DNA of 25,239 nt from a virus, in IMG/VR virus record IMGVR_UViG_3300037504_000397, positions 1 through 25,239 of that record; one strand, given 5' to 3'. The notes beneath the pieces were generated by a model. That model ran no database searches. It was not told the origin of the DNA and saw nothing but the letters and a program-made list of their open reading frames with translations. Made by a program: the position numbers and the translations under genes. This document shows, in pieces, positions 3,501 to 22,452 of this stretch; position 1 is the stretch's first letter; each line of letters begins with the position of its first letter.

Positions 3501-5909
3501 GACGGGTTGAATGTGTTTCTTGATGCAGCGCAGGCGAATTGTTTGTATGGGGTTGGCGATCGCTATGGCGTAGGGACTGAAGAGCGGCTCATCTGGCTTG
3601 GCAGCGCAAGCGGGGCTTTTGACGACACGTCCGGTAATAATCAAATCAACGAAACCGTAGCAAACGGCGATTACTTTCCTGACCCGGACACTTACGGTGA
3701 GTTTTGGGCGCAGTATGGCGCATCCGGCGACACGCCGCTGAGAACTGACCTGACTCTATTCCCATCCGGTTTGATTAAAAATGGCAACCTGCATATTCCT
3801 GGAGATATTCCGCTTGGCTCCATACTTTTTTTTACAAAACAATGGAACAACGCGTATCAACCGGCATCAAAATCAGACAAAATTATCGGTGTTCAAAGCG
3901 CGACGCTGTTCCACAAAACCGCCGGTGCGGGCGATGCTGATGGCGCGCTGTCTTACGTAACAAGCGGTGCATTGGTTTCCGGCCTTGACATCACCTCTCG
4001 GGCAGGCGAAGCGCGTATACTTCTGCTTAACGATACCGGTGGAAGCGAGAGGGTTATCGAAGTTGCGATAGTCGGCAAGCCGGTTTACAAGTTTACGGGT
4101 AGCGAGGGTTTCGTGCATGACTCGTTTATCGACCGGGCCGATGTGTTGAAAAACGGCGAGCGGTTGCTTGAGTTCGGCGGAGCTGATGTCATATCGGACC
4201 AACAGCTTAACCGCATGGCCGACTATCTTTGGAAAAACCGCGGCCAGCGAAAGCACATCTATATTTGCGCATCATACGGAGCGCTTCACGACATCGGGCC
4301 TAATGACTGGTACCGAATAGATGTTGGTCAATCGGGTACCGCTGAAGATGTTGCCGGGACAATGGTGGCCACAGGGATCAGAATATCAGCCGATGCGGAC
4401 ACGCACGGCAAAACCGAAATTACATACAGAGAAGTCGAGGAGGCGTGGAAGTATGACTCTAGCGCTATTGCTCGTTTTGTTGCTCGGGGGGTGCCAATAC
4501 GATCTCCCTCTACTGCAGGGGACACGGTTGTTGTAGGTGCTGAATATTCGACCGTTGACACTGATTTCCGTGTCCCCTCTGGAAACACGTCCGCAGAAGA
4601 CTTTATCAATCCAGCCATTACGCTAGCGAGTGAAACGCTCGGCGGCGGCACTGTGAAAGTAAAAAGCGGCACCTATAAAACCGATGGCCCGGTAGTAATG
4701 AAATCCAACGTCAAGCTACTTATGGAGCCGGGAGTTGTTATAGAGAAAAACCATAACGGGTATGCAATCACAGCGGCGGGGAGTTCCGGTAGTGAGCTTG
4801 AGAATATCATTATTGAAGGAGGGAAGGTCACACGGAATGCGAGCGATACGAATGTAAAAGACCTGATTTATTTCAATTATGTGGACGATTTCGCCATCCG
4901 TGGCGTAACGGCATACGACAGCAAGAACAACGGTATTTATTGCAATCATTGCGATAGAGGCGTCATTGAGAATTGCTTGATTGATACTTTTACTTATTAC
5001 GGGATACGTATTGGTGGAGAAGGTAGCGCAATAATAAATAACGAAATTAAGAATGGCGGCCAGCGCGGGATTAGTTGCGATTCTGGAAAAAACAGAATTG
5101 TCGCTAACAACATTTCCAGCTTTACTAACGCGGTATATGGCATATTAGCTGGTTCAGGCAGTGGAAACGGTAGCGTTATCGCCAACAATACAATAGAGAG
5201 TCTTTCTGGAGATGTTACTTGTATAATATGCGGCGCTACGAATAGTTCAATAAGCAACAACATGATACGCGATATTACCGCGTCTAACACTGATGATATC
5301 ACAGCAATTACGGCTGATGGCGCAGGGTCGACCGTAACAGGTAACTCGATACTTACCTTATCTGCAACTGGAAGCGGGGAAATCCGGGGCATAAATGCGG
5401 GGGTGTCTACTGTAATTTCAAGCAACACAATTGAGGATATATCTCATACAGGGACAGAGGGCATATACGCCATTCACTCAACAACTGTTGACGCTGAAAT
5501 AAATAACAACTCAATAGATTCTCTTGATATAAACAATGCTTCTAATAGCGGGGAGGCTGGCGGGATATATTTATCCAACGGCAGCGACAGGAATATCGTC
5601 AATGGGAATAAAGTATCAAATATAACTCTAACAAGTGGGGGCGTCTTGTCCTATGGAATATATGTCTACGATGCCTTATGTGTCGTCTCTGGAAATAACG
5701 CCTATACGGTTGATGATTACGGGATATATATTCTTGGGGATAATAATACTGTTTCTGGAAACACGGCATCCGGTTGTGATACAGGGATAGAAACGCGATC
5801 ATCAGCCGACCGCACCGTAGTAACCGGCAACCGCGCAACCTCAAATACCACAGACAACTTTGACGATAACGGCACAAATACAACGGATAGCGGCAATGAC
5901 TGGAATTAA
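522..5909 (+). CDS. Giant tail hub / receptor-binding protein with lectin-like modules and C-terminal beta-helix
   Basis: 1795 residues, starting immediately after the upstream stop codon. The domain order seen is: a short N-terminal segment; a jelly-roll-like module at about 52-215 opening with LIDRGNCEST; a LamG-like module at about 218-390; a hub-like block at about 395-548 (GKLIESYGANTLGFRLNND and FVGRATEDG, as in baseplate hub proteins); a second jelly-roll-like module at about 552-710 opening with LIDRGGCEST; a third at about 737-890; more hub sequence to about 1312 (ISDQQLNRMADYLW, YRIDVGQ, ITYREVEEAW); a pectate-lyase-like cap at about 1340-1410; and a right-handed beta-helix from about 1413 to the end with many N-N/S-N-x-I turns. 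It probably combines the tail-tip hub with host-surface polysaccharide binding or cleavage. No catalytic triad could be identified. The LamG stretch and the beta-helix are AT-richer than the rest. Confidence 0.85.
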   Translation: MAIKSIPTAWKDELRTGTLADRDLRLYCDFRGIEYPDLETGSAGYTLAREDNLIDRGNCESTTAPYIDDGGAAPDSDCSPTRSSDYAHGGDYSYKCTKSAAGTDFWYWTTGGSSNTTFTAGQTIEVSFWLYLPTAGGADSSDVFVLIREVDGAASNTNYSYDVDTYGDSTTDAWFEVKFSHTFADDMDTAGIALRCRETPTSAGDVWYADDIRVTSHTVPGSHYLSSGYIETLCPMTETFTLQIKFKSNFAHDTASYYRIFGWYVSGTQRFIVEWNAGSDYFYVYWQDGGTVRRLVSAQYDNGSTHRNINQWITLTAAIDLSTGTTAGSSLWMDKTLDDTGWDGNIDAKTTEFNKATIRGAVGTAGDYDIAYVRLFFNYVATDDDVQNDFKDVANEEIFWSLDGHGTGRTRANINTSGHRVLEHYNSYKGINGKLIESYGANTLGFRLNNDAGEFSDDQNAAWDPANAVYNGTNAQNYLQNRFGVVAESWYSGDFDYLFVGRATEDGFKRQSKNTDYSRVRCDAEDGVGDLDRAVEETGRVFSANMLCRHDTLIDRGGCESTTNPAMYGETSTTLSNATFARSETRSYSGRYSYLGTKTVAAGTAATITLADSEAAGDMHGLTAGNTYTLKAAIYIPTGMLGSELSLAIVDSAGSTTQAASNTYDEWQIVEVEHTLDAGATYAYPQIQIASAAANTETFHIDQIKLIPDDLSEAHDISLFHNIAKRGYRIQRQYLANNNFENTTIGDSWLVTTGGTITKTADTDMLGTHSCRLQPGAAAEQLYQTVLFTGSRKLNVGQTYTLQCYLKSSAAASGSDNYIEISEQDSSGENDSTSETYTLAGGEGYKLASATHSITDKDSDRIVVNIGAAASDDIYVKMTMLCESDNEIYYFEENETDGSSGEVSADDSAEMSWPWFGIDTGNVDYIHPWRRMEQNSTVWENLKSIGAGTGATYCGFDESGTLVNRAILDNGYSDPVPIDTVTDVGTDTNHILLDGLNVFLDAAQANCLYGVGDRYGVGTEERLIWLGSASGAFDDTSGNNQINETVANGDYFPDPDTYGEFWAQYGASGDTPLRTDLTLFPSGLIKNGNLHIPGDIPLGSILFFTKQWNNAYQPASKSDKIIGVQSATLFHKTAGAGDADGALSYVTSGALVSGLDITSRAGEARILLLNDTGGSERVIEVAIVGKPVYKFTGSEGFVHDSFIDRADVLKNGERLLEFGGADVISDQQLNRMADYLWKNRGQRKHIYICASYGALHDIGPNDWYRIDVGQSGTAEDVAGTMVATGIRISADADTHGKTEITYREVEEAWKYDSSAIARFVARGVPIRSPSTAGDTVVVGAEYSTVDTDFRVPSGNTSAEDFINPAITLASETLGGGTVKVKSGTYKTDGPVVMKSNVKLLMEPGVVIEKNHNGYAITAAGSSGSELENIIIEGGKVTRNASDTNVKDLIYFNYVDDFAIRGVTAYDSKNNGIYCNHCDRGVIENCLIDTFTYYGIRIGGEGSAIINNEIKNGGQRGISCDSGKNRIVANNISSFTNAVYGILAGSGSGNGSVIANNTIESLSGDVTCIICGATNSSISNNMIRDITASNTDDITAITADGAGSTVTGNSILTLSATGSGEIRGINAGVSTVISSNTIEDISHTGTEGIYAIHSTTVDAEINNNSIDSLDINNASNSGEAGGIYLSNGSDRNIVNGNKVSNITLTSGGVLSYGIYVYDALCVVSGNNAYTVDDYGIYILGDNNTVSGNTASGCDTGIETRSSADRTVVTGNRATSNTTDNFDDNGTNTTDSGNDWN
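4453..4536 (+). CDS. Possible nested micro-lipoprotein in an alternative frame of the tail gene
   Basis: In the +1 frame inside the tail gene, an ATG at 4453 follows GAGGAGG (4437-4443) by nine bases and encodes 27 residues. The product begins MTLALLLVLLLGGCQ, a hydrophobic run ending in a lipobox-like L-G-G-C, with 13 residues after the Cys. An upstream in-frame ATG at 4393 would add a basic n-region (KSRRRGS), making a better signal peptide but without an obvious ribosome site. Nested lipoproteins are known in phages (Rz1-type outer spanins), and small lipoproteins near receptor-binding genes can block superinfection. The mature part is very short and the reading may be chance overlap with the hub/beta-helix junction. 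Confidence 0.2.
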   Translation: MTLALLLVLLLGGCQYDLPLLQGTRLL

Positions 5910-6272: not shown

Positions 6273-6832
6273 TTATTACTGAGCACCTACTACCGGTTAA
6301 CGCGTTTTCTCGCCCCGGATATAAGCGGCCGGAAACGCTCGGCATTGTATATCACTGGGTTGGTAACGCGGGCCAAAGCCAAGAAGGGGTTGCTCGCTAC
6401 TTTGAGCTGCTTGCGAAGCAAGACGACACAGACGACAAGCCAGACCGGTACGCCTCGGCGCATTATATCATTGGTATCGATGGCGAAATTGTCCGGGTAA
6501 TTCCAGACGATGAAGTAGCTTATCATGTGGGCGCGCGCAAGTACACAAGCACGGCGCAGCACCGACTCAAGGGCTACACAACCAACAAGCGGCAGGGGAC
6601 GCCCAACTGGTGCACCATCGGGATTGAAATGTGCCACCCGGATTGGACGGGAGTTTTCACCGACGCAACGCTTGAGGCCGCTGCGAAGCTCGGAAAGCAC
6701 TTAGTGCAGACCTATTTGCTCGGTCCACGTGATATCTATAAGCACTACGACATCACGGGGAAACTCTGCCCGAAGTGGTTTGTCGAGCACGGCGCCGCGT
6801 GGCTGTCGTTTTGCGAGGACGTCCAATTGTAA
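6269..6832 (+). CDS. Endolysin: N-acetylmuramoyl-L-alanine amidase (Amidase_2/PGRP family)
   Basis: About 187 residues from GTG at 6269, which overlaps the preceding stop as GTGA; an in-frame GTG at 6260 would add three residues. Cleaves the amide bond between N-acetylmuramate and L-alanine in peptidoglycan to lyse the host. Counting from 6260, the zinc ligands and catalytic residues of T7-lysozyme-type amidases are visible: His32 in IVYHWVG, Tyr69 in SAHYIIG, His162 in YKHYDITG, Lys168 and Cys170 in GKLCPKW; Glu123 in IGIEMCH is also typical. There is no signal peptide or separate wall-binding domain, so release should depend on the holin. Close to T7 lysozyme in size. Confidence 0.95.
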   Translation: MIITEHLLPVNAFSRPGYKRPETLGIVYHWVGNAGQSQEGVARYFELLAKQDDTDDKPDRYASAHYIIGIDGEIVRVIPDDEVAYHVGARKYTSTAQHRLKGYTTNKRQGTPNWCTIGIEMCHPDWTGVFTDATLEAAAKLGKHLVQTYLLGPRDIYKHYDITGKLCPKWFVEHGAAWLSFCEDVQL

Positions 6833-7147: not shown

Positions 7148-8004
7148 GTGAAGAGATAGACGTACAAGAAGTATTAGAGCCGGTTGACGCTAAAGAGCTT
7201 CGTGGCCAGGTGGAAGCTTTGCAAACGGCGCTGGTGAAGTTGCAAGAGAAGCGGCATTACATTGTGCCGGCAAAAACGAAAGGCAACACAATCCGTTTCG
7301 GGCTTATCGGCGACACGCATATCGGGAGCTTTTACGAGCGTATTGACGCGCTAACAGAGTTCTATCAACATCTTGCGGCTGAAAAAATCACAACGTGCTT
7401 GCATGCCGGTGACATCATGGATGGTTGCAAGATGTACCGCGGGCAAGAGTTTGAGCTGTACGCGCACGGCTATGACGCGCAAGAGCGGGCCCTTGCTGAT
7501 AAGTGGCCGGATACCAAAGTGCACACCTACTTCATAACTGGAAATCACGACTATAGTTTTACCAAACAAATCGGCATGAAGGTCGGCGAAAAACTTGAAA
7601 AGGTTATCCCGAATAGCACATTTGTCGGAACGGACTCGGCAACCGTTGAGCTTATGGCAGGCAACGGGCAATCCGTCCGAGTTGGCTTGACGCACCCGGG
7701 CGGGGGAACGGCTTACGCGATTAGTTATAAGAGCCAGAAGCAAGCCGAGGCGATCCCTGGCGGGATGAAACCGGACATACTCGGCATAGGACACTACCAC
7801 AAAGCCGACTACCTGCCGATGTTTCGCAACATCCACATTTTTCAATCCGGCTGCTTCCAAAGTCAAACACCATTCATGGCAGCAAAACCGACGCCGGCGC
7901 ATGTGGGCGGCTGGATTGTCGAGGCAACGGTGGGCGACCGGGAGAACTTGGTAAGCCGTATCAGGTCCGAGTTTATCGCGTTCTACGAACCGGATAGCGG
8001 TTGA
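7144..8004 (+). CDS. Calcineurin-like metallophosphoesterase
   Basis: 286 residues. After a coiled N-terminal 40 residues, every dinuclear-metal motif of the family is present: GDTHIG (Asp57, His59), GD in LHAGDIMDG (Asp90), GNHDYS (Asn134, His135), the metal-binding His184 in GLTHPGGG, and GHYH (His217, His219). It should hydrolyse a phosphoester with Mn or similar metals; the substrate is not evident and could be DNA, a nucleotide or RNA. It overlaps the upstream HTH-like gene by four bases and lies between endolysin and holin. It is distinct from the SbcD domain encoded at 14558, which lacks a canonical GNHD. A morphogenesis, nuclease or counter-defence role cannot be told from sequence. 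Confidence 0.9.
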   Translation: MSEEIDVQEVLEPVDAKELRGQVEALQTALVKLQEKRHYIVPAKTKGNTIRFGLIGDTHIGSFYERIDALTEFYQHLAAEKITTCLHAGDIMDGCKMYRGQEFELYAHGYDAQERALADKWPDTKVHTYFITGNHDYSFTKQIGMKVGEKLEKVIPNSTFVGTDSATVELMAGNGQSVRVGLTHPGGGTAYAISYKSQKQAEAIPGGMKPDILGIGHYHKADYLPMFRNIHIFQSGCFQSQTPFMAAKPTPAHVGGWIVEATVGDRENLVSRIRSEFIAFYEPDSG

Positions 8005-8014
8005 GTAACTAAAA

Positions 8015-8043
8015 CGCAGTACATAGTCAGCCTATGTGTTGCG
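8015..8043 (+). promoter_or_regulatory. 12-bp stem-loop upstream of the holin gene
   Basis: CGCAGTACATAG (8015-8026) pairs with CTATGTGTTGCG (8032-8043), with two G-U wobbles, around a five-base loop. It lies between the phosphoesterase stop and the holin ribosome site. No U-tract follows, so it is not a standard terminator; it may be an RNA-stability or translation-control hairpin. Confidence 0.45.
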
Positions 8044-8069: not shown

Positions 8070-8552
8070 ATGGGATTAGCTCAATGGTTAGGAATAGGTA
8101 AGACGGTTGCCGACGTGACCGAAAAAGCAACAACCGGCGTTGCCGATATTATCACGGTAGCGAAGGGCGATATACCTCCCGAAGCAAAGGGAGAAATTGA
8201 AAAGCTCAAGGTGCAGATATCCGGTGATATAGAGAAGCTCGTTCAGAACAGCGTCAACGAGGCGCGTGATTTTGCGCTGCAGTATGAGGGGACTGCAGCG
8301 CAGGTGCCAAAATGGCTGTTGCTTGTGCGGTCTTTGATACGACCAACGGTAACGGTGCTCACGTTTGGCTGGTTCTTCTCGATTCTCTGCATCGATATGT
8401 TTCATATTGCCAAACAAACCGCAGATTATACGCTTTTGTTAGACAACATTCCGCAGGGGTTTTGGTGGATCCTTGGTATCATCCTCACGTTTTGGTTTGG
8501 CGGGAAGGTGGGTGAACGGGTAGCCGAAAAGGTCAGGCAAAAACCGAATTAA
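8070..8552 (+). CDS. Holin, 3TM superfamily (Holin_3TMs-like)
   Basis: 160 residues with an AAGGGGG ribosome site. An amphipathic N-terminal half rich in charged helix (IPPEAKGEIEKLKVQISGDIEKL) is followed by the family hallmark around residues 68-90 (ARDFALQYEGTAAQVPKWL then LVRSLIRPTVTVL). Membrane segments are seen at about 92-110 and 127-147, and the tail is basic (RVAEKVRQKPN). This is the layout of the 3TM holin family also found in gene-transfer agents and many prophages, which opens the inner membrane so that the endolysin can reach the wall. It is the last rightward gene of the tail/lysis block. Its TAA overlaps the integrase stop on the other strand, so the two transcription units are convergent with no spacer. 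Confidence 0.88.
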   Translation: MGLAQWLGIGKTVADVTEKATTGVADIITVAKGDIPPEAKGEIEKLKVQISGDIEKLVQNSVNEARDFALQYEGTAAQVPKWLLLVRSLIRPTVTVLTFGWFFSILCIDMFHIAKQTADYTLLLDNIPQGFWWILGIILTFWFGGKVGERVAEKVRQKPN

Positions 8553-11017: not shown

Positions 11018-11046
11018 TTGACAGGCTAATGTATAACGTATAGTAT
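11018..11046 (+). promoter_or_regulatory. Rightward early promoter (PR-like)
   Basis: TTGACA at 11018-11023, a 17-base spacer, then TAGTAT at 11041-11046. The -35 box and spacing are ideal for sigma-70-type RNA polymerase. The expected transcription start, about seven bases after the -10 box, coincides with the ATG at 11053. An operator half-site overlaps the spacer end and the -10 box. Confidence 0.7.
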
Positions 11047-11415: not shown

Positions 11416-11483
11416 GGTCCGCCGTGGTGTGGCGAGGTCTGGCGAGGTCAGGTTGGGCCAGGTACGGTCTGGCAAGGTGAGGT
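11416..11483 (+). repeat. GGYNN pentamer array 1
   Basis: GGT or GGC recurs at exact five-base steps at 11426, 11431, 11436 and so on to 11481: twelve consecutive units, plus one at 11416 after a single degenerate step. The two bases between units vary. The array fills the space before the AGGAGG ribosome site of the gene at 11512 and ends in a T-run. The coding-strand G pairs at five-base spacing fit a two-tier G-quadruplex pattern. Confidence 0.95.
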
Positions 11484-11511
11484 TTTTTATTTCGACTACA
11501 GGAGGAATCAA

Positions 11512-12072
11512 ATGAAATTAGTCGAACGAAAGTATAAGGTTGTGGGTATTTTTCCGTTGCTCATGAACAATCCGGCAAAAATGGTTGTCGGTAGTAATGG
11601 GCCGAAAACAAAACACATTCCCACACCGGAAGAAGAAGCAGAGAAAGGGCTGTACGTCGACGACGACGGCAACTTTTATCTGCCGTCTAACATGTTTCGG
11701 GCTTGCCTGCTTAACGGCTTGAAAGGCAAGCGTATCGGCAAGTTAGGCGCGGCAACGGTTTTCAAGCCAGCGGTTTTTAACGTGGACGAGCAGACAGTCG
11801 TTCTCGACGCAAAAACCATGAAGCCCAAAAAGGATTACATCGTTGATACGCGGCGGGCGGTTGTGCAGAACAATGGCGTCATGCGGAGCCGTCCAAAGTT
11901 TACTGAATGGGCGGCAATTGTTCGCCTGTTGCTCGATGAAGAAGTCGTAAGCCCGGAAATGGTGGCGGAGCATTTGGACATTGCCGGGAAAACTACGGGT
12001 GTCGGCGATTATCGTATAGCGCGCGGCGGGCCGTTTGGTTCGTTTTACGTAGATGGATTTGGCGAAAAATAA
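11512..12072 (+). CDS. Conserved phage protein of unknown function, flanked by GGYNN arrays
   Basis: 186 residues with AGGAGG seven bases before ATG. Features are an N-terminal strand leading into IFPLLMNNPA, a central LPSNMFRACLLNGLKGKRIGK, a basic segment (VDTRRAVVQNNGVMRSRPKF) followed by WAAIVRLLLDEEVVSPEM, and a C-terminus GKTTGVGDYR then GGPFGSFYV. I recognise the PLLM.N and G.GDYR...GGPFG.F motifs as recurring in unnamed phage and actinobacterial proteins. The strand and glycine pattern is reminiscent of RAMP/Cas7-like ferredoxin folds, but this is a guess. It is an early gene between pentamer arrays 1 and 2, so nucleic-acid binding is plausible. Confidence 0.8.
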   Translation: MKLVERKYKVVGIFPLLMNNPAKMVVGSNGPKTKHIPTPEEEAEKGLYVDDDGNFYLPSNMFRACLLNGLKGKRIGKLGAATVFKPAVFNVDEQTVVLDAKTMKPKKDYIVDTRRAVVQNNGVMRSRPKFTEWAAIVRLLLDEEVVSPEMVAEHLDIAGKTTGVGDYRIARGGPFGSFYVDGFGEK

Positions 12073-12086
12073 GCCATATATAGTAA

Positions 12087-12159
12087 GGCTTGGTGGGGCA
12101 AGGTGAGGTTTGGTCAGGTGCGACATGGCGTGGCGCGGCGCGGCGAGGTGAGGTTTGGT
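12087..12159 (+). repeat. GGYNN pentamer array 2
   Basis: Fifteen positions at exact five-base steps from 12087 to 12157, fourteen of them GGT or GGC (12122 reads GAC). It starts 14 bases after the stop of the 186-residue gene. Its phase relative to array 3 is not a multiple of five, so the two arrays are separate tracts, split by about 34 AT-rich bases. Confidence 0.95.
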
Positions 12160-12193
12160 TATTTTGCGAAATTATTTGATTGAGAAATAATGT

Positions 12194-12266
12194 GGCGGGG
12201 TAGGGTGAGGTCTGGTGAGGTTAGGCCTGGTGAGGTTCGGTGCGGTAAGGCACGGCACGGTGAGGT
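12194..12266 (+). repeat. GGYNN pentamer array 3
   Basis: Fifteen consecutive GGT or GGC units at perfect five-base steps from 12194 to 12264, ending 22 bases before the ParB-like gene. A reading frame runs through it, encoding an Arg/Gly-rich stretch, but it has no ribosome site. The array is therefore more likely an untranslated leader or DNA element. Confidence 0.95.
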
Positions 12267-12288
12267 AAAGATTTTTATAGGGGTTGTT

Positions 12289-12993
12289 ATGAGTGAAAAA
12301 ATTATTGTTTCGGAATTAATTAAGGATTATGACATTTACCCGCGGGCATCCATTGATGCTACACACGTACAAGACTTAATAGATGCTGAGTTGGCCGGGG
12401 CAAAGCTGCCGCCAATAATCGCGGATAGAAAATCAAAACGTATTGTCGACGGCTTTCATCGTGTAAGAAAGCACGAAAAGCTTTACGGAGAAGACGCAAA
12501 AATAAGCGTCATATTTAAAGATTACGAAAACGAGCAGGCGCTTTATCTGGATGCGATTAAGCTTAATTCTGATGTAAAGAAAAAAATAAGCGGGGCGGAC
12601 AGGACGCATGCCGTGATTGTTGGCGTCAATTTGGGTATAAAAGATACAGCGCTCGCCGACGCATTTGGCGTAACCGTGGAGCGTGTGCAACAAATAATTG
12701 AGATAAAAACCGGCATTGTAAAATCTCCGCAAACTAAAAATAAGGCCGCGAAACAACGGGTAGTCCGCCTAAAAAACTCCGTCCGGCACGATTGGGGCAA
12801 ACACAGAGAATACACGCCAGAGCAAGCGACATGGATAGATAAGCATGCGCCAGGGCAAAACCAAACAACTCTTATCAACCAGCTTGTCGAATTAATTGAG
12901 CTGGATTTATTGGACAAAAATAACGCGGCGGTGATGTCTGGACTTGCCAGATTGCGCAGCCTTCTGTCCGATGTTGTGGAGATTCCCGCATGA
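12289..12993 (+). CDS. ParB/Spo0J-like nuclease-domain protein
   Basis: 234 residues from ATG 12289, preceded by AGGGG; the frame is open farther upstream through the pentamer array but without initiation signals. The N-terminal 90 residues form a ParB N-domain: IIVSELIKDYDIYPR, LPPIIADRKSKRIVDGFHR (Asp54-Gly-Phe-His-Arg58, the conserved D-G-x-H-R), then VIFKDYENEQALYLDAIKLN. A helix-turn-helix-like section follows at about 103-140 (DRTHAVIVGVNLGIKDTALADAFGVTVERVQQII), then a basic linker and a helical C-terminus. ParB-like domains can bind CTP or act as nucleases; DNA binding is likely. Its gene is directly preceded by array 3, which could be its binding site (inference). Its stop overlaps the next ATG. 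Confidence 0.85.
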   Translation: MSEKIIVSELIKDYDIYPRASIDATHVQDLIDAELAGAKLPPIIADRKSKRIVDGFHRVRKHEKLYGEDAKISVIFKDYENEQALYLDAIKLNSDVKKKISGADRTHAVIVGVNLGIKDTALADAFGVTVERVQQIIEIKTGIVKSPQTKNKAAKQRVVRLKNSVRHDWGKHREYTPEQATWIDKHAPGQNQTTLINQLVELIELDLLDKNNAAVMSGLARLRSLLSDVVEIPA

Positions 12994-13685: not shown

Positions 13686-14558
13686 ATGGATGAAAAGAAA
13701 GCGTTAGCAGTTATTGAAAAGCACAAGAATGAGGGGGCGCTCGTTTTTGTCAATGAAAACGACTTAAACCCGCAATCACTCTTCAAGACATTGACAACAA
13801 AAATACAGGCAGTGCCTACGGATTTTCACGAAAAACCTATTAACGGCGAAATGATGCCAAAGGCGCACCACCTGCAACGGATTGCGGAAGCTGCCGGAAT
13901 CACCTTCGACACGAAAGACATTGTTAAGAACGAAACATCCTGGACTGTGACCGTTACAGCGATCAGGCGCGGGCCGGACGGAATTATGTATCACGTCGAT
14001 GCCAGTTATGATTATGACTGGGTGGATCGGGCAAAAGACGGGCCTAAGAAATTTGCTTTACAGCGAGCAGAGACCGGGGCACAGCTTCGCGCTATTCGAA
14101 AGATTCTTGGCTTGCCAGTAACGTTCAACCGCGACAATTTCCAGCGTGCCGTTGTAGTCTGCCGGATTGTGGCGAACACAGACGAGCTCCTGAAAAATCC
14201 GGAGATGCGCAAAACCGCATTGCAGATAGCTACCAATGGTGCGTCTGACATCTACGGCCCGAAAGACGTAACGCCACAGATAGAGGCGTTGGAAGAACCG
14301 CAGGAAGAAACCGGAGAAGAGCCGATTGACTTCGGTGAAGATACCGCCAGCGACGACGGCGAAGACTGGGAGCTTGCTGCAGCAAAGCAAAGCCTTGAAG
14401 AGTACCAAAACAACGAGGCTGTGAAGTCCTACGTCAGTAAGGGGAACGGCAGGCATCCGATACAGGCGATTGAAGAGACCTTGAACAACCCGAATGTAAC
14501 TGTTGAGGAAATCAACAACTTAATTACGTTGCTCAAGAAGATTCCGGGGGTGGCGTGA
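13686..14558 (+). CDS. Putative recombination protein, possibly a single-strand annealing protein
   Basis: 290 residues from ATG 13686, with AAAGGAG six bases upstream (TTG 13680 is less likely). The central region has KAHHLQRIAEAAGITFD, then a strand-rich part (WTVTVTAIRRGPDGIMYHVDASYDYDW), then ALQRAETGAQLRAIRKILGLP. The last motif resembles the A-E-T-A-x-x-R-A-x-R helix of Rad52/Sak-type annealing proteins. The C-terminal third is acidic (EEPQEETGEEPIDFGED), as in ssDNA-interacting proteins that recruit partners, and ends in a helical domain. It directly precedes and overlaps the SbcD-SbcC fusion, which would supply resection. Function is inferred from motif shape and context. Confidence 0.55.
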   Translation: MDEKKALAVIEKHKNEGALVFVNENDLNPQSLFKTLTTKIQAVPTDFHEKPINGEMMPKAHHLQRIAEAAGITFDTKDIVKNETSWTVTVTAIRRGPDGIMYHVDASYDYDWVDRAKDGPKKFALQRAETGAQLRAIRKILGLPVTFNRDNFQRAVVVCRIVANTDELLKNPEMRKTALQIATNGASDIYGPKDVTPQIEALEEPQEETGEEPIDFGEDTASDDGEDWELAAAKQSLEEYQNNEAVKSYVSKGNGRHPIQAIEETLNNPNVTVEEINNLITLLKKIPGVA

Positions 14559-17500
14559 TGATAAAGCTCGTCCATTCTGCCGATTTTCATTTCAGCAGAG
14601 AAAACCAGATACCGGCCCTGCAATCCCTTAAGACCTTTGCAAACACCGGTATTGAGCAGGACGTTGACCTGTTTGTTATTGCCGGGGACTTGTTCGACAG
14701 GGCTGTCCAAAATACCGCGTCAAGCGGACTTCCGGAGCTGCAGCGAGTCATTCAACGCATGATGGACCACGCGCCTGTTGTGGCCGTAACAGGCACTCCA
14801 ACGCACGATATACCAGGCGCGTATGAAGTTTTGACTGAAACGAACGCGGAACACAAGTTTACGCTCTTATATCCAGGCGTTATCTACTTCCTGAAAAACA
14901 AAGTGATTCATGCGCATGACCATTCTGACGGCAAGCCAACCAATGCAGAACTTTTGATTTTCGGTTGCCCGGAGCCCTCTAAAGAATGGTTTCTGTCAGG
15001 TAGAAACGGCCTGAGTAGGGACGAAGCTACCCAGGCCGTAATCAAAGGAATGCGCGATATCTTTCTTGGCTTTGCTGCCACACGGAAAGAATACAGCGAC
15101 ATTCCTTGTCTCATGGTATATCACGGTGAAGTATCCGGGGCAAGCATGTGCAACGGCCAGACGCTACCGCAGGGCGGGATTGCTGTTGGGCGTGATGACT
15201 TGGCTATGGTCAATGCGGATTATTACGCGTTCGGACATATTCACCTGGCGCAACAGATTGGGGATTTGCCAGCGTACTATTCCGGGTCAGCGTTCCCGGT
15301 GGATTGGGGGGAAACTGAGCAGAAACAATTCAACATCGTCGAACTGAACGACCTCGCGCAGCGACGTGTCGAAGAAATGGCATGGGGTCAGTCTGTTGTT
15401 GCCCGGCTAACGCGCATCGACTACCCCCACCCGCCACGAAAGAAGATCGTCTGTGAGAAAATGGATCTCTTTGCTGACGGAGAGCTTGACGGCTACCAAG
15501 TATGGGCCGTGATCCGTGGCGACAAGCGAGACCTCGCAACCTTTGACACTGACCGAGCCTTGCGCGACATGCTCAATGATGGCGCTCTCCCCGGCTCCCG
15601 CGTAACAACCGAGATTATCCCAACCGAAACAATACGCGCCGGTGAAATCCAGGAAGCAAAAAGCTTGTGGGATAAGGTCACAATCTACGCCGAGAATACC
15701 GGCGAAGAAATCAGAAAGATTGACGTAACACTCCGCGAAAAAGCAGAAGCCCTCGAAGCCGAAGCCAGGCGCGAAGGGCTGGTGTCAGAAGGCGCACACA
15801 TTCGCATTGATTCGTTATCACTCCGTGGCGCTATCGGCATTAAAAAGGGGACGGGGAACGATGAAATATATCTGGATTTCAATAGCTTTGATTCTGGACT
15901 TATTGCTTTGCTTGGATCAAACGGTGCGGGCAAGACGACGCTTATCGAGAACCTTCACCCATACGCGACCATGCTTACCCGCGGCGGGAAGCTCCAGGAT
16001 CACTTCTTTCTGCGTGACTCGTGGCGCGATTTGCGTTTTACGGATTGCAAGACGGATAGCCAGTACCGGGCGCTGATACACATCGACGGCGCCAACGCTT
16101 CCGGATCCTGCGAGTATCACCTGTACCGCGACGGTCAACCGCTTGTAAACGGAAGGAAGGCGGACTATGAGGAAAAGATTACCGAACTCTTTGGCTCCCT
16201 TGCTTTGTACGTGCGCAGTGCGTTCACGGCGCAGAAAGCCAGCAAGCAAGCTCCTGATTTGGCGTCAGCTACGCAGAGCGAAAAGAAGGCGCTCTTTCGG
16301 GAACTCGCAGGGCTTGAATACTTACAGACCTACAGCGAAGCGGCCAGAGAAAAAGCCAAGGCGATAGAGAACGAAACCGAGCGCGACAAAGGCCGTATCG
16401 AGCAGATGAAATCGCAGGTCGAGAAAATGCCGGAGCTTGACGACCAGCATGCCGACCTCGTTGCCCGGCAAAAGGCCGCGTTGTTAGAGTTGGCGGACGT
16501 GGAAGAGAAAGGCGAGAAGGCAAAGCAGAAAGCCGCGGAGCTTGAATCTGTTGTAAGCGAGAACCGGCGCATTGAGTCCAGGACCGCAGAGCTCAAGCGA
16601 CAAGGCGAAGAGTTGGTCGTTGCAAACGTTGGGCTGGTCAGTGAGCGCGAAGGTTATGAGGCTGCACTTGAGAAACAAGCACAGGCGGAATACGAGCAAC
16701 AGGAATACGACAAACTGCAGAAGCGTAAGGGGGAAATAGAACGTGAACAGGCGGAAGAGTATAAACGCAGAGATCAGGCACGTACTGAATACGATTCTCA
16801 GCGCAAGGCTGTTGCAGATATCGAGCAGGAGCTACGCGCACAGTGCGAAAAAATACGGCAGGAAATTCAGGAAAAACGCGAAGAAAAGAGCCAAAAAGTC
16901 GGAAAAATTGACTATTTCGATGCCATATTACAGCAACCTATAGATACCACTTGTCCCACCTGTAAGCAGGAATTACCGCCGGACGTAGCAACGCAGCTCA
17001 AAGCCGAACGCGCAGAGCAGCAGAAGACGCTCGAAGGTTTGCAGGCGGAAGTATTCGATATTGACCAGGACATTGCCGCATTCGAAAAAGCCGAAGCGAA
17101 ACTCAAGGCCGACATTGATGCTTTGGAATGGCCGGCAGAGCCGCACTTTAAGGACGTTGACGATTCTACCTTGAGCCAGATTAACGAAAGCTTGACAACG
17201 TTTCCGGTTGAGGAAATTAGGATAACGCTTGAAAAAGCGAAAGTTGCTGCGGCGAAGCTTGAGACAATTGATGTACAGGTCAAGGCCAATAAAGACAAAC
17301 TTAAGGCTGTCAGGGCGGAAGTAGCCGAGCTGGAATCCAATTACAATTTTGAAGCGGATGAAGCCTACCAGGAAGTTACCCGGGAGCTTGAAGAGTTGCG
17401 CGATGACTACCAGAAGGCCAGGGAAAAGAAGACGGCCGTTGAAGTAGAGCTCAAGGGTGTTGAAAGGCAGATAGAAGCGTTAACGGAGACAGGGAAGGAA

Positions 17501-18079
17501 CTGGAAGCGCTTGAAGGCCAGGTTAAGCAAAAGGTTGAAGATGCGCAGGAATGGCGATACTTGGAGACGGCCTGCGGCCCGAACGGCATTCAGGCGCTTG
17601 AGCTTGACGCGCTGGCGCCGTCAATAGCTGACGTTGCAAACCGGTTGCTTGCCTCCGCCTATGATGCACGGTTTCAGATTGAGTTTAGGACAACGCGTAT
17701 TGCCGGAGAAGGTAGCAAAACAAAGCAGGTAGAGGACTTTGAGATCGTTATCCACGACAGCAAAGACGGATCAGAGCAACCGCTTGATACGCTATCAGGC
17801 GGGGAAAGCGTATGGATTAAGAAGGCGATTTATGACGCCTTTGGCATTATTCGGGCGAAGAACACCGGGACGCAATTCTTGACGGTTTTCCTTGACGAGG
17901 CCGACGGCGCTCTTGATACAGAGGCGAAGGTCAACTACTTCCGGCTTCTGGAAGCGGCTCACAACGAGTCAGGACGGCATCATACCGTTGTGATTACTCA
18001 CTCAACTGACATCCAGGAGATGATACCGCAGCGGATTGTTATGACGGAGCTGCAAGCGAAAGTGAAGGAGGTAGCGTGA
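14558..18079 (+). CDS. Single-polypeptide SbcD-SbcC (Mre11-Rad50) fusion
   Basis: 1173 residues from ATG 14558 (a GTG at 14555 is alternative). The nuclease half, about 1-340, has SADFHFS (Asp9, His11), AGDLFD (Asp44), GTPTHD in place of GNHD (79-84), VYHGE and FGHIH. After a linker (about 340-412) comes an SbcC/Rad50-type ATPase: Walker A GSNGAGKTT (453-461); coiled coil from about 600; zinc hook CPTC (799-802); return coiled coil to about 985; signature LSGGE (1079-1083); Walker B FLDEAD (Asp1113, Glu1114); and H-loop His1148. No frameshift or stop interrupts it. Such complexes resect or cut DNA ends and hairpins and, in phages, support recombination-dependent replication. Normally the subunits are separate genes. 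Confidence 0.95.
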   Translation: MIKLVHSADFHFSRENQIPALQSLKTFANTGIEQDVDLFVIAGDLFDRAVQNTASSGLPELQRVIQRMMDHAPVVAVTGTPTHDIPGAYEVLTETNAEHKFTLLYPGVIYFLKNKVIHAHDHSDGKPTNAELLIFGCPEPSKEWFLSGRNGLSRDEATQAVIKGMRDIFLGFAATRKEYSDIPCLMVYHGEVSGASMCNGQTLPQGGIAVGRDDLAMVNADYYAFGHIHLAQQIGDLPAYYSGSAFPVDWGETEQKQFNIVELNDLAQRRVEEMAWGQSVVARLTRIDYPHPPRKKIVCEKMDLFADGELDGYQVWAVIRGDKRDLATFDTDRALRDMLNDGALPGSRVTTEIIPTETIRAGEIQEAKSLWDKVTIYAENTGEEIRKIDVTLREKAEALEAEARREGLVSEGAHIRIDSLSLRGAIGIKKGTGNDEIYLDFNSFDSGLIALLGSNGAGKTTLIENLHPYATMLTRGGKLQDHFFLRDSWRDLRFTDCKTDSQYRALIHIDGANASGSCEYHLYRDGQPLVNGRKADYEEKITELFGSLALYVRSAFTAQKASKQAPDLASATQSEKKALFRELAGLEYLQTYSEAAREKAKAIENETERDKGRIEQMKSQVEKMPELDDQHADLVARQKAALLELADVEEKGEKAKQKAAELESVVSENRRIESRTAELKRQGEELVVANVGLVSEREGYEAALEKQAQAEYEQQEYDKLQKRKGEIEREQAEEYKRRDQARTEYDSQRKAVADIEQELRAQCEKIRQEIQEKREEKSQKVGKIDYFDAILQQPIDTTCPTCKQELPPDVATQLKAERAEQQKTLEGLQAEVFDIDQDIAAFEKAEAKLKADIDALEWPAEPHFKDVDDSTLSQINESLTTFPVEEIRITLEKAKVAAAKLETIDVQVKANKDKLKAVRAEVAELESNYNFEADEAYQEVTRELEELRDDYQKAREKKTAVEVELKGVERQIEALTETGKELEALEGQVKQKVEDAQEWRYLETACGPNGIQALELDALAPSIADVANRLLASAYDARFQIEFRTTRIAGEGSKTKQVEDFEIVIHDSKDGSEQPLDTLSGGESVWIKKAIYDAFGIIRAKNTGTQFLTVFLDEADGALDTEAKVNYFRLLEAAHNESGRHHTVVITHSTDIQEMIPQRIVMTELQAKVKEVA

Positions 18080-21575: not shown

Positions 21576-21779
21576 ATGGACAAGTATTTAGTTAAAGTAG
21601 GTGCGGCGGGTTACTGTAGAGGGACACAGGTGTTTGAAGTTGATGCAGAATCTATCGATGATGCCATGGAGACATGGTGGGCTGGTGAGTTGATCGAAGA
21701 TAAAATCACCAGAGATGATAGAGAACATGAGGTATGGTCTGTTAAAAAGAAAGAAGGTGATGAGAATGAACAAGATTAA
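21576..21779 (+). CDS. Hypothetical small protein
   Basis: 67 residues from ATG 21576 (ATG 21570 gives two more and overlaps the previous TAA). It looks like a compact alpha/beta protein: MDKYLVKVGAAGYCRGTQVFEVDAES, then a helix (IDDAMETWWAGELIEDKI) and a basic/acidic end (SVKKKEGDENEQD). The first half resembles small phage domains with a V-x-V strand and a following A-M-x-x-W helix. The gene end carries the GAAGGTG ribosome site of the next gene. Confidence 0.65.
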   Translation: MDKYLVKVGAAGYCRGTQVFEVDAESIDDAMETWWAGELIEDKITRDDREHEVWSVKKKEGDENEQD

Positions 21780-22452
21780 AGCATGGCACTTCCTCCCCAG
21801 AGACCGCCGCTTGCGGTGGGGAACACGCGAGGTTGTTGAGGTAGGCAAAACGTACTCAATAGAGTGGCCGTATGAGTACGATGGCGAGACGTACGACAGG
21901 CCTACTTTGTGCGCGGCTGGTTTGCATGGCAGCGAGAAAATATTGGATGCGTTGGGTAACGCGCCCGGTCCTATCTGTTGTCGTGTAGAGATATGGGGCG
22001 ACGTTGAGCGAGGTAATGGTAAGCTGGTAGGCCGCTACCGCCGTGTGTTATCGATGATTGACGCGACGAATATTCTGCATGAGTTTGCCTGCCGGTGCGC
22101 GGAACATGCCCTTAAGCGATACTGCAACGGTGACGAGCGTAGTTGGGCTGCTATCGAGGCCAAGCGCAAATGGCTACGAGGCGAGATAAGCGACAGCGAC
22201 CTTGCTACGGCGGAGTCAGCGGCGAGGTCAGCGGCGGAGTCAGCGGCGAGTTCAGCGGCGAGTTCAGCGGCGGGGTCAGCGGCGGAGTCAGCGGCGAGGT
22301 CAGCGGCGGGGTCAGCGGCGAGTTCAGCGGCGAGTTCAGCGGCGAGTTCAGCGGCGGGGTCAGCGGCGGAGTCAGCGGCGAGGTCAGCTCAAAACCGCCT
22401 ACTAACAGCGATGATAAGTAAAGCAATGGAGGAACAGAATGGACAAGATTAA
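21766..22452 (+). CDS. DUF7666-like phage protein with Ser/Ala tetrapeptide repeats
   Basis: 228 residues from ATG 21766 (21760 adds two). The first 125 residues are a family common in phages: KAWHFLPRDRRLRWG, VVEVGKTYSIEW, LCAAGLHGSEKILDAL, APGPICCRVEIWG and IDATNILHEFACRCAEHAL; function unknown. From about residue 148 the protein becomes S-A-A-X repeats, with X being R, E, S or G, encoded by a 12-bp tandem repeat (22216-22383), then a short helical end. Such Ala-rich tails recur in this family. The last 14 bases overlap the next gene. Confidence 0.8.
   Translation: MNKIKAWHFLPRDRRLRWGTREVVEVGKTYSIEWPYEYDGETYDRPTLCAAGLHGSEKILDALGNAPGPICCRVEIWGDVERGNGKLVGRYRRVLSMIDATNILHEFACRCAEHALKRYCNGDERSWAAIEAKRKWLRGEISDSDLATAESAARSAAESAASSAASSAAGSAAESAARSAAGSAASSAASSAASSAAGSAAESAARSAQNRLLTAMISKAMEEQNGQD
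22216..22383 (+). repeat. 12-bp tandem repeat (14 units) coding for Ser-Ala-Ala-X
   Basis: Fourteen units of TCAGCGGCG plus one variable codon. The variable codons in order are AGG, GAG, AGT, AGT, GGG, GAG, AGG, GGG, AGT, AGT, AGT, GGG, GAG, AGG. Only the variable codon differs; the AGT-GGG-GAG-AGG order occurs twice, pointing to block duplication. No stop codon occurs in any forward frame of the repeat. Confidence 0.97.

Follow-up and report, generated by a model that had tools for sequence, protein, structure and literature searches.

The 25,239-nt viral stretch analysed here (hereafter the window) very probably carries a phage-borne VIPR system (Viral Interference Programmable Repeat), in which three tracts of GGYNN units would be guide-RNA genes, with expression, guide loading and silencing assigned by homology. 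The locus is a divergent member of a kind of system that was already described in 2026: a preprint of that year reports a phage-borne RAMP protein, Vipr, that binds vrRNAs made of 9-16 YNNGG repeats plus a 3' tail; the NN pairs of these vrRNAs base-pair with DNA, one target base is skipped per repeat, usually the codon wobble base, and the effect is transcriptional repression, with targets in competing phages and satellites (PMC13142463). Transcription of vrRNAs and their copurification with Vipr were shown for the SUSP1 VIPR and for a related VIPR of a Pseudomonas fulva prophage, while the 1-nt-skip code and silencing were shown for the SUSP1 VIPR (PMC13142463). A literature search found no other description of VIPR; the original prediction, which knew of no described function for such tracts, is out of date in this respect. 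Features of VIPR that we find in the window are homology to Vipr, a predicted RAMP/RRM-type fold, arrays of 14, 15 and 15 units with hypervariable NN, linkage between arrays and gene, and an adjoining gene for a predicted DNA-interacting protein.

A scan of the whole window finds 41 GGY units spaced at exactly 5 nt, all on the + strand and in three tracts, as had been described from first inspection of the DNA. The strict run of tract 1 has 12 units (11426-11483) and can be extended back to 11416 (GGTCC-GCCGT-GGTGT...), giving 14 units with one degenerate; tract 2 has 7+7 units (12087-12159), split by a single GACAT unit at 12122, the one exception to the pattern that had been pointed out; tract 3 is a strict run of 15 units (12194-12266). 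The - strand and the rest of the window have no GGY run of four or more at 5-nt steps. The three arrays are far beyond chance: in 2,000 simulated windows (first-order Markov) the longest GGY run was 5, reached once, and the value was nearly always 0 or 3. Since the unit has either C or T at its third position and variable bases at its last two, the tracts are not simple tandem repeats, and the earlier view of a periodic constraint holds; because the NN positions vary, Tandem Repeats Finder registers the tracts only as weak 5-, 10- or 15-nt repeats. A repeat of a different kind lies at 22215-22388, where 14.5 copies of a 12-bp unit (GTCAGCGGCGAG) within the ORF at 21715-22452 encode an Ala/Ser/Gly-rich AASSAAGSAA stretch.

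The tracts are noncoding or leader sequence, and they frame one gene and adjoin a ParB-like gene, again as predicted. Array 1 (11416..11485, +), which consists of GGTCC and GCCGT followed by 12 strict GGYNN units, lies 5' of the vipr gene and within its leader, the tract ending 28 nt before the start of the 186-aa ORF; its NN series, read directly from the sequence, is CC GT GT GA CT GA CA TG CA AC CT AA GA TT. Array 2 (12087..12161, +), with 15 units of which 14 are GGY, starts 14 nt past the stop codon of the same ORF and reads TT GG AA GA TT CA GC AT GT GC GC GA GA TT (TA). Array 3 (12194..12268, +) is in the leader of the ParB-like gene, tract 3 ending 22 nt before the likely ATG (12289), and its 15 strict units read GG AG GA CT GA TA CT GA TC GC AA AC AC GA (AA); a longer ORF from an ATG at 12190 traverses tract 3 into the ParB-like gene. 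Each of the three arrays terminates in GGTGAGGTWW, to which array 2 adds one unit, with AT-rich sequence beyond, and this terminal motif might serve as a minimal 3' handle; we recognised no conserved structured tail like that of SUSP1 downstream of the arrays. Upstream of the locus, a consensus scan gives a possible early promoter at 11018..11046 (+; TTGACA-17-TAGTAT, 10/12 to consensus), which is a weak candidate because the number of promoter-consensus sites in the scan is near the shuffle mean.

The gene between arrays 1 and 2 (vipr, 11512..12072, +) encodes the 186-aa protein, for which a Cas7/Csm3 (RAMP) fold is predicted at high confidence. It matches phrog_4652 (E 2.8e-20), as do all 41 aligned family members (41/41), the function being given there as unknown; no Pfam model covers the family. 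Searched alone against the PDB, the window protein matches 36pp_D, "SUSP1 Vipr protein", with E 2e-10, and the family profile matches this one PDB sequence with E 2e-42. The conserved columns of the family are G12, R127, W133, G159, G163, R168-P169, G176 and F178 in window numbering; the ORF is intact, and the invariant W133, G159, G163 and G176 columns are kept. The AlphaFold2 model has a mean pLDDT of 94, and its top Foldseek matches are Cas7-type chains of type III, VII and IV CRISPR systems, mostly Csm3 (E 1e-5); VIA-align places the model on a Csm chain (9g9f_E) with Z 12.0 and 3.9 Å over 163 residues, at a sequence identity to the structural matches of about 6-14%. A shared Cas7 fold alone does not show function. 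The window protein is on a long branch of the Vipr tree; exact peptide seeds, which are too strict for this use, found no close relative in viral and genome contigs, and no near DNA relative of the window was found among 50,697 phage records.

The arrays and vipr are genetically linked across phages. A scan of a viral collection of 2.9 million contigs with the pattern (GGYNN)10 alone matched at least 120 stretches, and 80 loci were fetched; two or more GGY runs of 8 are present in 55 of these 80. The arrays are confined to one strand per contig in the fetched loci, with the exception of one short extra run in L037; GGC is commoner than GGT, and all 16 NN dinucleotides are used. Homologues of the window protein occur in about 50 of the 80 loci by single-sequence search and in 58 of the 80 by iterative search, which bears out the linked array-gene system that had been predicted; relative to vipr, the arrays of these relatives are upstream, downstream and multiple. 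The 22 loci with no Vipr match (L015, L031, L038, L065 and others) comprise some short or edge-truncated contigs and some with other genes beside the arrays; those that are not edge-truncated may use divergent Vipr proteins or none. One viral contig (L183) has two Vipr homologues, at about 3411 and 5479, with a GGYNN array between them.

In the opposite direction, starting from the protein, GGY runs of at least 6 units at 5-nt steps were found on the Vipr strand and near the gene in 9 of the 11 phage or plasmid loci that have a Vipr, among them phage SUSP1 of the reference set, which has the same array-gene layout. This is the comparison on which a linked system had been expected to fail if related phages carried the genes without arrays. 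Phages phiHSIC (L235) and Medea1 (L237) have a Vipr homologue and no GGY run of four or more within 2.5 kb; possibly they use a different scaffold consensus, have distant arrays or have lost them. As a control we used the order-reversed pattern (YGGNN)10, which gave 100 stretches, with 80 loci fetched: two or more runs of 8 were present in 1 of 80 loci, compared to 55 of 80 for GGYNN, the median fraction of distinct units was 0.2 as against 0.7, and the control loci are mostly low-diversity tandem repeats. Ten control loci do have a Vipr homologue, and their arrays also satisfy GGYNN, the last N being a pyrimidine.

By homology with the published systems, we suggest that transcripts of the three tracts form part of vrRNAs, and that copies of Vipr would assemble along each vrRNA, probably with one protomer per 5-nt GGYNN unit. 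Vipr would hold GGY as a scaffold and present the NN dinucleotides, which would pair with double-stranded DNA with one base skipped per unit, so that each array would specify a gapped target of about 42-45 bp (for array 3: GGnAGnGAnCTnGAnTAnCTnGAnTCnGCnAAnACnACnGA). Binding of the Vipr-guide complex would then block transcription of the target, probably in competing phages or satellites, and the ParB-like protein would probably be a DNA-binding accessory.

When the arrays are decoded by the published 1-nt-skip rule, the resulting gapped targets are readable as sense-frame codons (TGn and TAn stop readings omitted): P V V D/E L D/E H/Q C/W H/Q T L K/N D/E F/L for array 1, F/L G K/N D/E F/L H/Q A I/M V A A D/E D/E F/L for array 2, and G S/R D/E L D/E Y L D/E S A K/N T T D/E for array 3. 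This codon readability is suggestive only. Seeds of 9 units from the three decoded arrays gave a few viral matches, none extending past the seed; matches of this kind, such as L131 (a phage gene, QAIVAAD) and L135, were judged to be chance because they stop at the seed edges. Among 392 Planctomycetota genomes none matches the decoded target of array 3 at up to 3 mismatches. These negatives count for little, since a seed from phage LESphi2, used as a positive control, likewise gave no match in the viral set. We see no convincing self-target in the window: the best self match under the 1-nt skip covers 7 of 14-15 units, and other skip lengths give similar values. In the NN statistics of 197 arrays, TA and CA are depleted and GC and AA enriched within units, and cross-unit pairs are mostly near 1.0; this is consistent with copying of NN from DNA, but it is also expected of ordinary adjacent bases, and we thus do not use it as proof of the code.

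That the arrays are DNA sites, iteron-like, parS-like or recombination-enhancing, bound at 5-bp steps by the ParB-like or recombination proteins, is a reading we consider very improbable. A ParB-like gene does directly follow array 3, and sites in tandem at 5 bp might in principle be suited to a protein that forms filaments on DNA; however, the ParB-like family is present in only 3 of 59 Vipr loci, as compared to the Vipr family in 58 of 80 array loci, and an RNA guide accounts better than a protein site for the hypervariable NN and for the strand of the arrays relative to the gene. The suspicion that such tracts go with recombination genes found no support either: the linked gene is the RAMP/Cas7-fold vipr, and no homologue of the putative recombination protein of the window (p3, 292 aa) was found in other array loci. 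The idea of a RecT/SSAP protein taking up 5 nt per protomer was dropped because no association of the arrays with the putative recombination protein of the window was found; a literature search for pentanucleotide repeats near phage recombinases found nothing.

The placement of two arrays in gene leaders, together with GG every 5 nt, from which two-tier quadruplexes could form in our inference, might instead point to structured RNA leaders or G-quadruplex-like attenuators of the flanking genes that have no guide function. We regard this as extremely improbable: predicted secondary structure, quadruplexes aside, is no better for the array RNAs than for dinucleotide shuffles (z 0.24, -1.57 and 0.21), arrays in relatives are found on either side of the gene and in several copies, and a published homologue uses its arrays as guides (PMC13142463). 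It is also improbable, if slightly less so, that the locus is a former VIPR system, decayed or repurposed in this phage, for example after its foreign targets were gone. One broken unit each in arrays 1 and 2 and the empty target searches would be in line with such decay, but the Vipr ORF is intact with its invariant residues, array 3 consists of 15 perfect units, and the window holds no convincing self-target.

The ParB-like gene downstream (12289..12993, +; 234 aa, a ParB N-terminal domain plus helix-turn-helix) is a candidate VIPR accessory gene (vap). Its product matches phrog_1033 (E 1.5e-7), and its model matches ParB/Noc/KorB with a mean pLDDT of 71, residues 1-140 being mostly above 80 and the C-terminal part low. 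Strong full-length relatives are present in 2 of the other 58 Vipr loci, L076 and L066. A search of a collection of genomes from 84,980 species with the ParB-like family gave one relative, in a Planctomycetota MAG (L244), where a Vipr gene lies about 370 nt upstream of the ParB-like gene; among 392 Planctomycetota genomes this genome has the sole strong full-length match, and a further Planctomycetota locus (L247) has a weaker match near its Vipr. The Vipr tree joins the window protein to that of L244 with support of 100/98 and places L076 and L066 elsewhere, so that at least three Vipr lineages have the ParB-like gene as a companion. As all the strong full-length relatives of the ParB-like protein that were found lie beside Vipr genes, and in at least three lineages, the protein is likely to be a VIPR accessory. 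It does not belong with the relatives of SUSP1 vap1, nor with those of the gene most often found downstream in other loci, and no ParA-like match was found among ten window proteins scanned. The preprint, which distinguishes VIPR types I-VII and accessories vap1-6, predicts DNA binding for the accessories of types II, VI and VII (PMC13142463). A more specific idea, which we put forward only tentatively and think rather unlikely, is that of a VIPR subtype in which a ParB/KorB-like clamp accessory loads or spreads at the gapped target marked by Vipr and enforces silencing, and in which the scaffold (GGY or [C/G]GC) co-diversifies with Vipr.

According to one proposal, VIPR resembles an ancestor of CRISPR effectors and has a new, noncontiguous guide code. 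The locus described here adds a divergent member, from a phage that has no close relative in the reference set, and links VIPR to a predicted ParB-like DNA-binding accessory that accompanies Vipr in at least three lineages. The neighbours of vipr are the ParB-like protein, an unknown 118-aa protein, an excisionase-like HTH protein and an SbcC/D-like protein. The last of these, encoded just downstream of the locus (14555-18079, +; 1174 aa), has an SbcD-like nuclease N-terminus and is SbcC-like ATPase over the rest, and is thus an apparent SbcD-SbcC fusion.

With class 1 CRISPR-Cas effectors (type III Csm3/Cas7 and gRAMP/Cas7-11) the window protein has the Cas7 fold in common over nearly the whole of Vipr (Z about 12). 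The guides differ, however: those of class 1 systems come from repeat-spacer arrays, while the window has a 5-nt tandem-repeat scaffold. A tandem-repeat scan of the window found no interspersed direct-repeat (CRISPR) array, no cas operon was seen there, and PADLOC gave no cas match for four window proteins scanned. With the SUSP1 VIPR (PMC13142463; PDB 36pp) the locus shares a homologous Vipr, flanking GGYNN arrays on the gene strand, a small accessory gene downstream and its location in a phage. The two Vipr proteins are about 27% identical over 146 residues and are not grouped in the tree; the accessory of the window is ParB-like and not homologous to SUSP1 vap1, and in place of the structured tail of the SUSP1 type the window arrays have AT-rich 3' ends that finish in the common terminal motif.

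The closest Vipr that we found is that of the Planctomycetota MAG (L244, JAJVHW010000047.1), which is 36% identical over 180 residues; it too is followed by the ParB-like gene, whose product is 33% identical to that of the window. The 5-nt-periodic arrays of this locus (L244 4620-8124) differ in having a [C/G]GCNN scaffold where the window has GGYNN: the tracts, at 4650-4684, 4806-4865, 4895-4934, 6591-6670, 7590-7629, 7967-8041 and 8075-8124 on the strand shared by the Vipr and ParB-like genes, have 7 to 16 units, mostly with CGC and some with TGC, CGT or GGT. Shuffles of this GC-rich locus reach 8 units at most, so that the 7- and 8-unit tracts are weak when taken alone. Since the preprint mentions "a related consensus" for the scaffold (PMC13142463), we do not claim [C/G]GCNN as new. 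The window and L244 nonetheless form a natural comparison, GGYNN against [C/G]GCNN, from which the protein features that determine scaffold recognition could be mapped directly.
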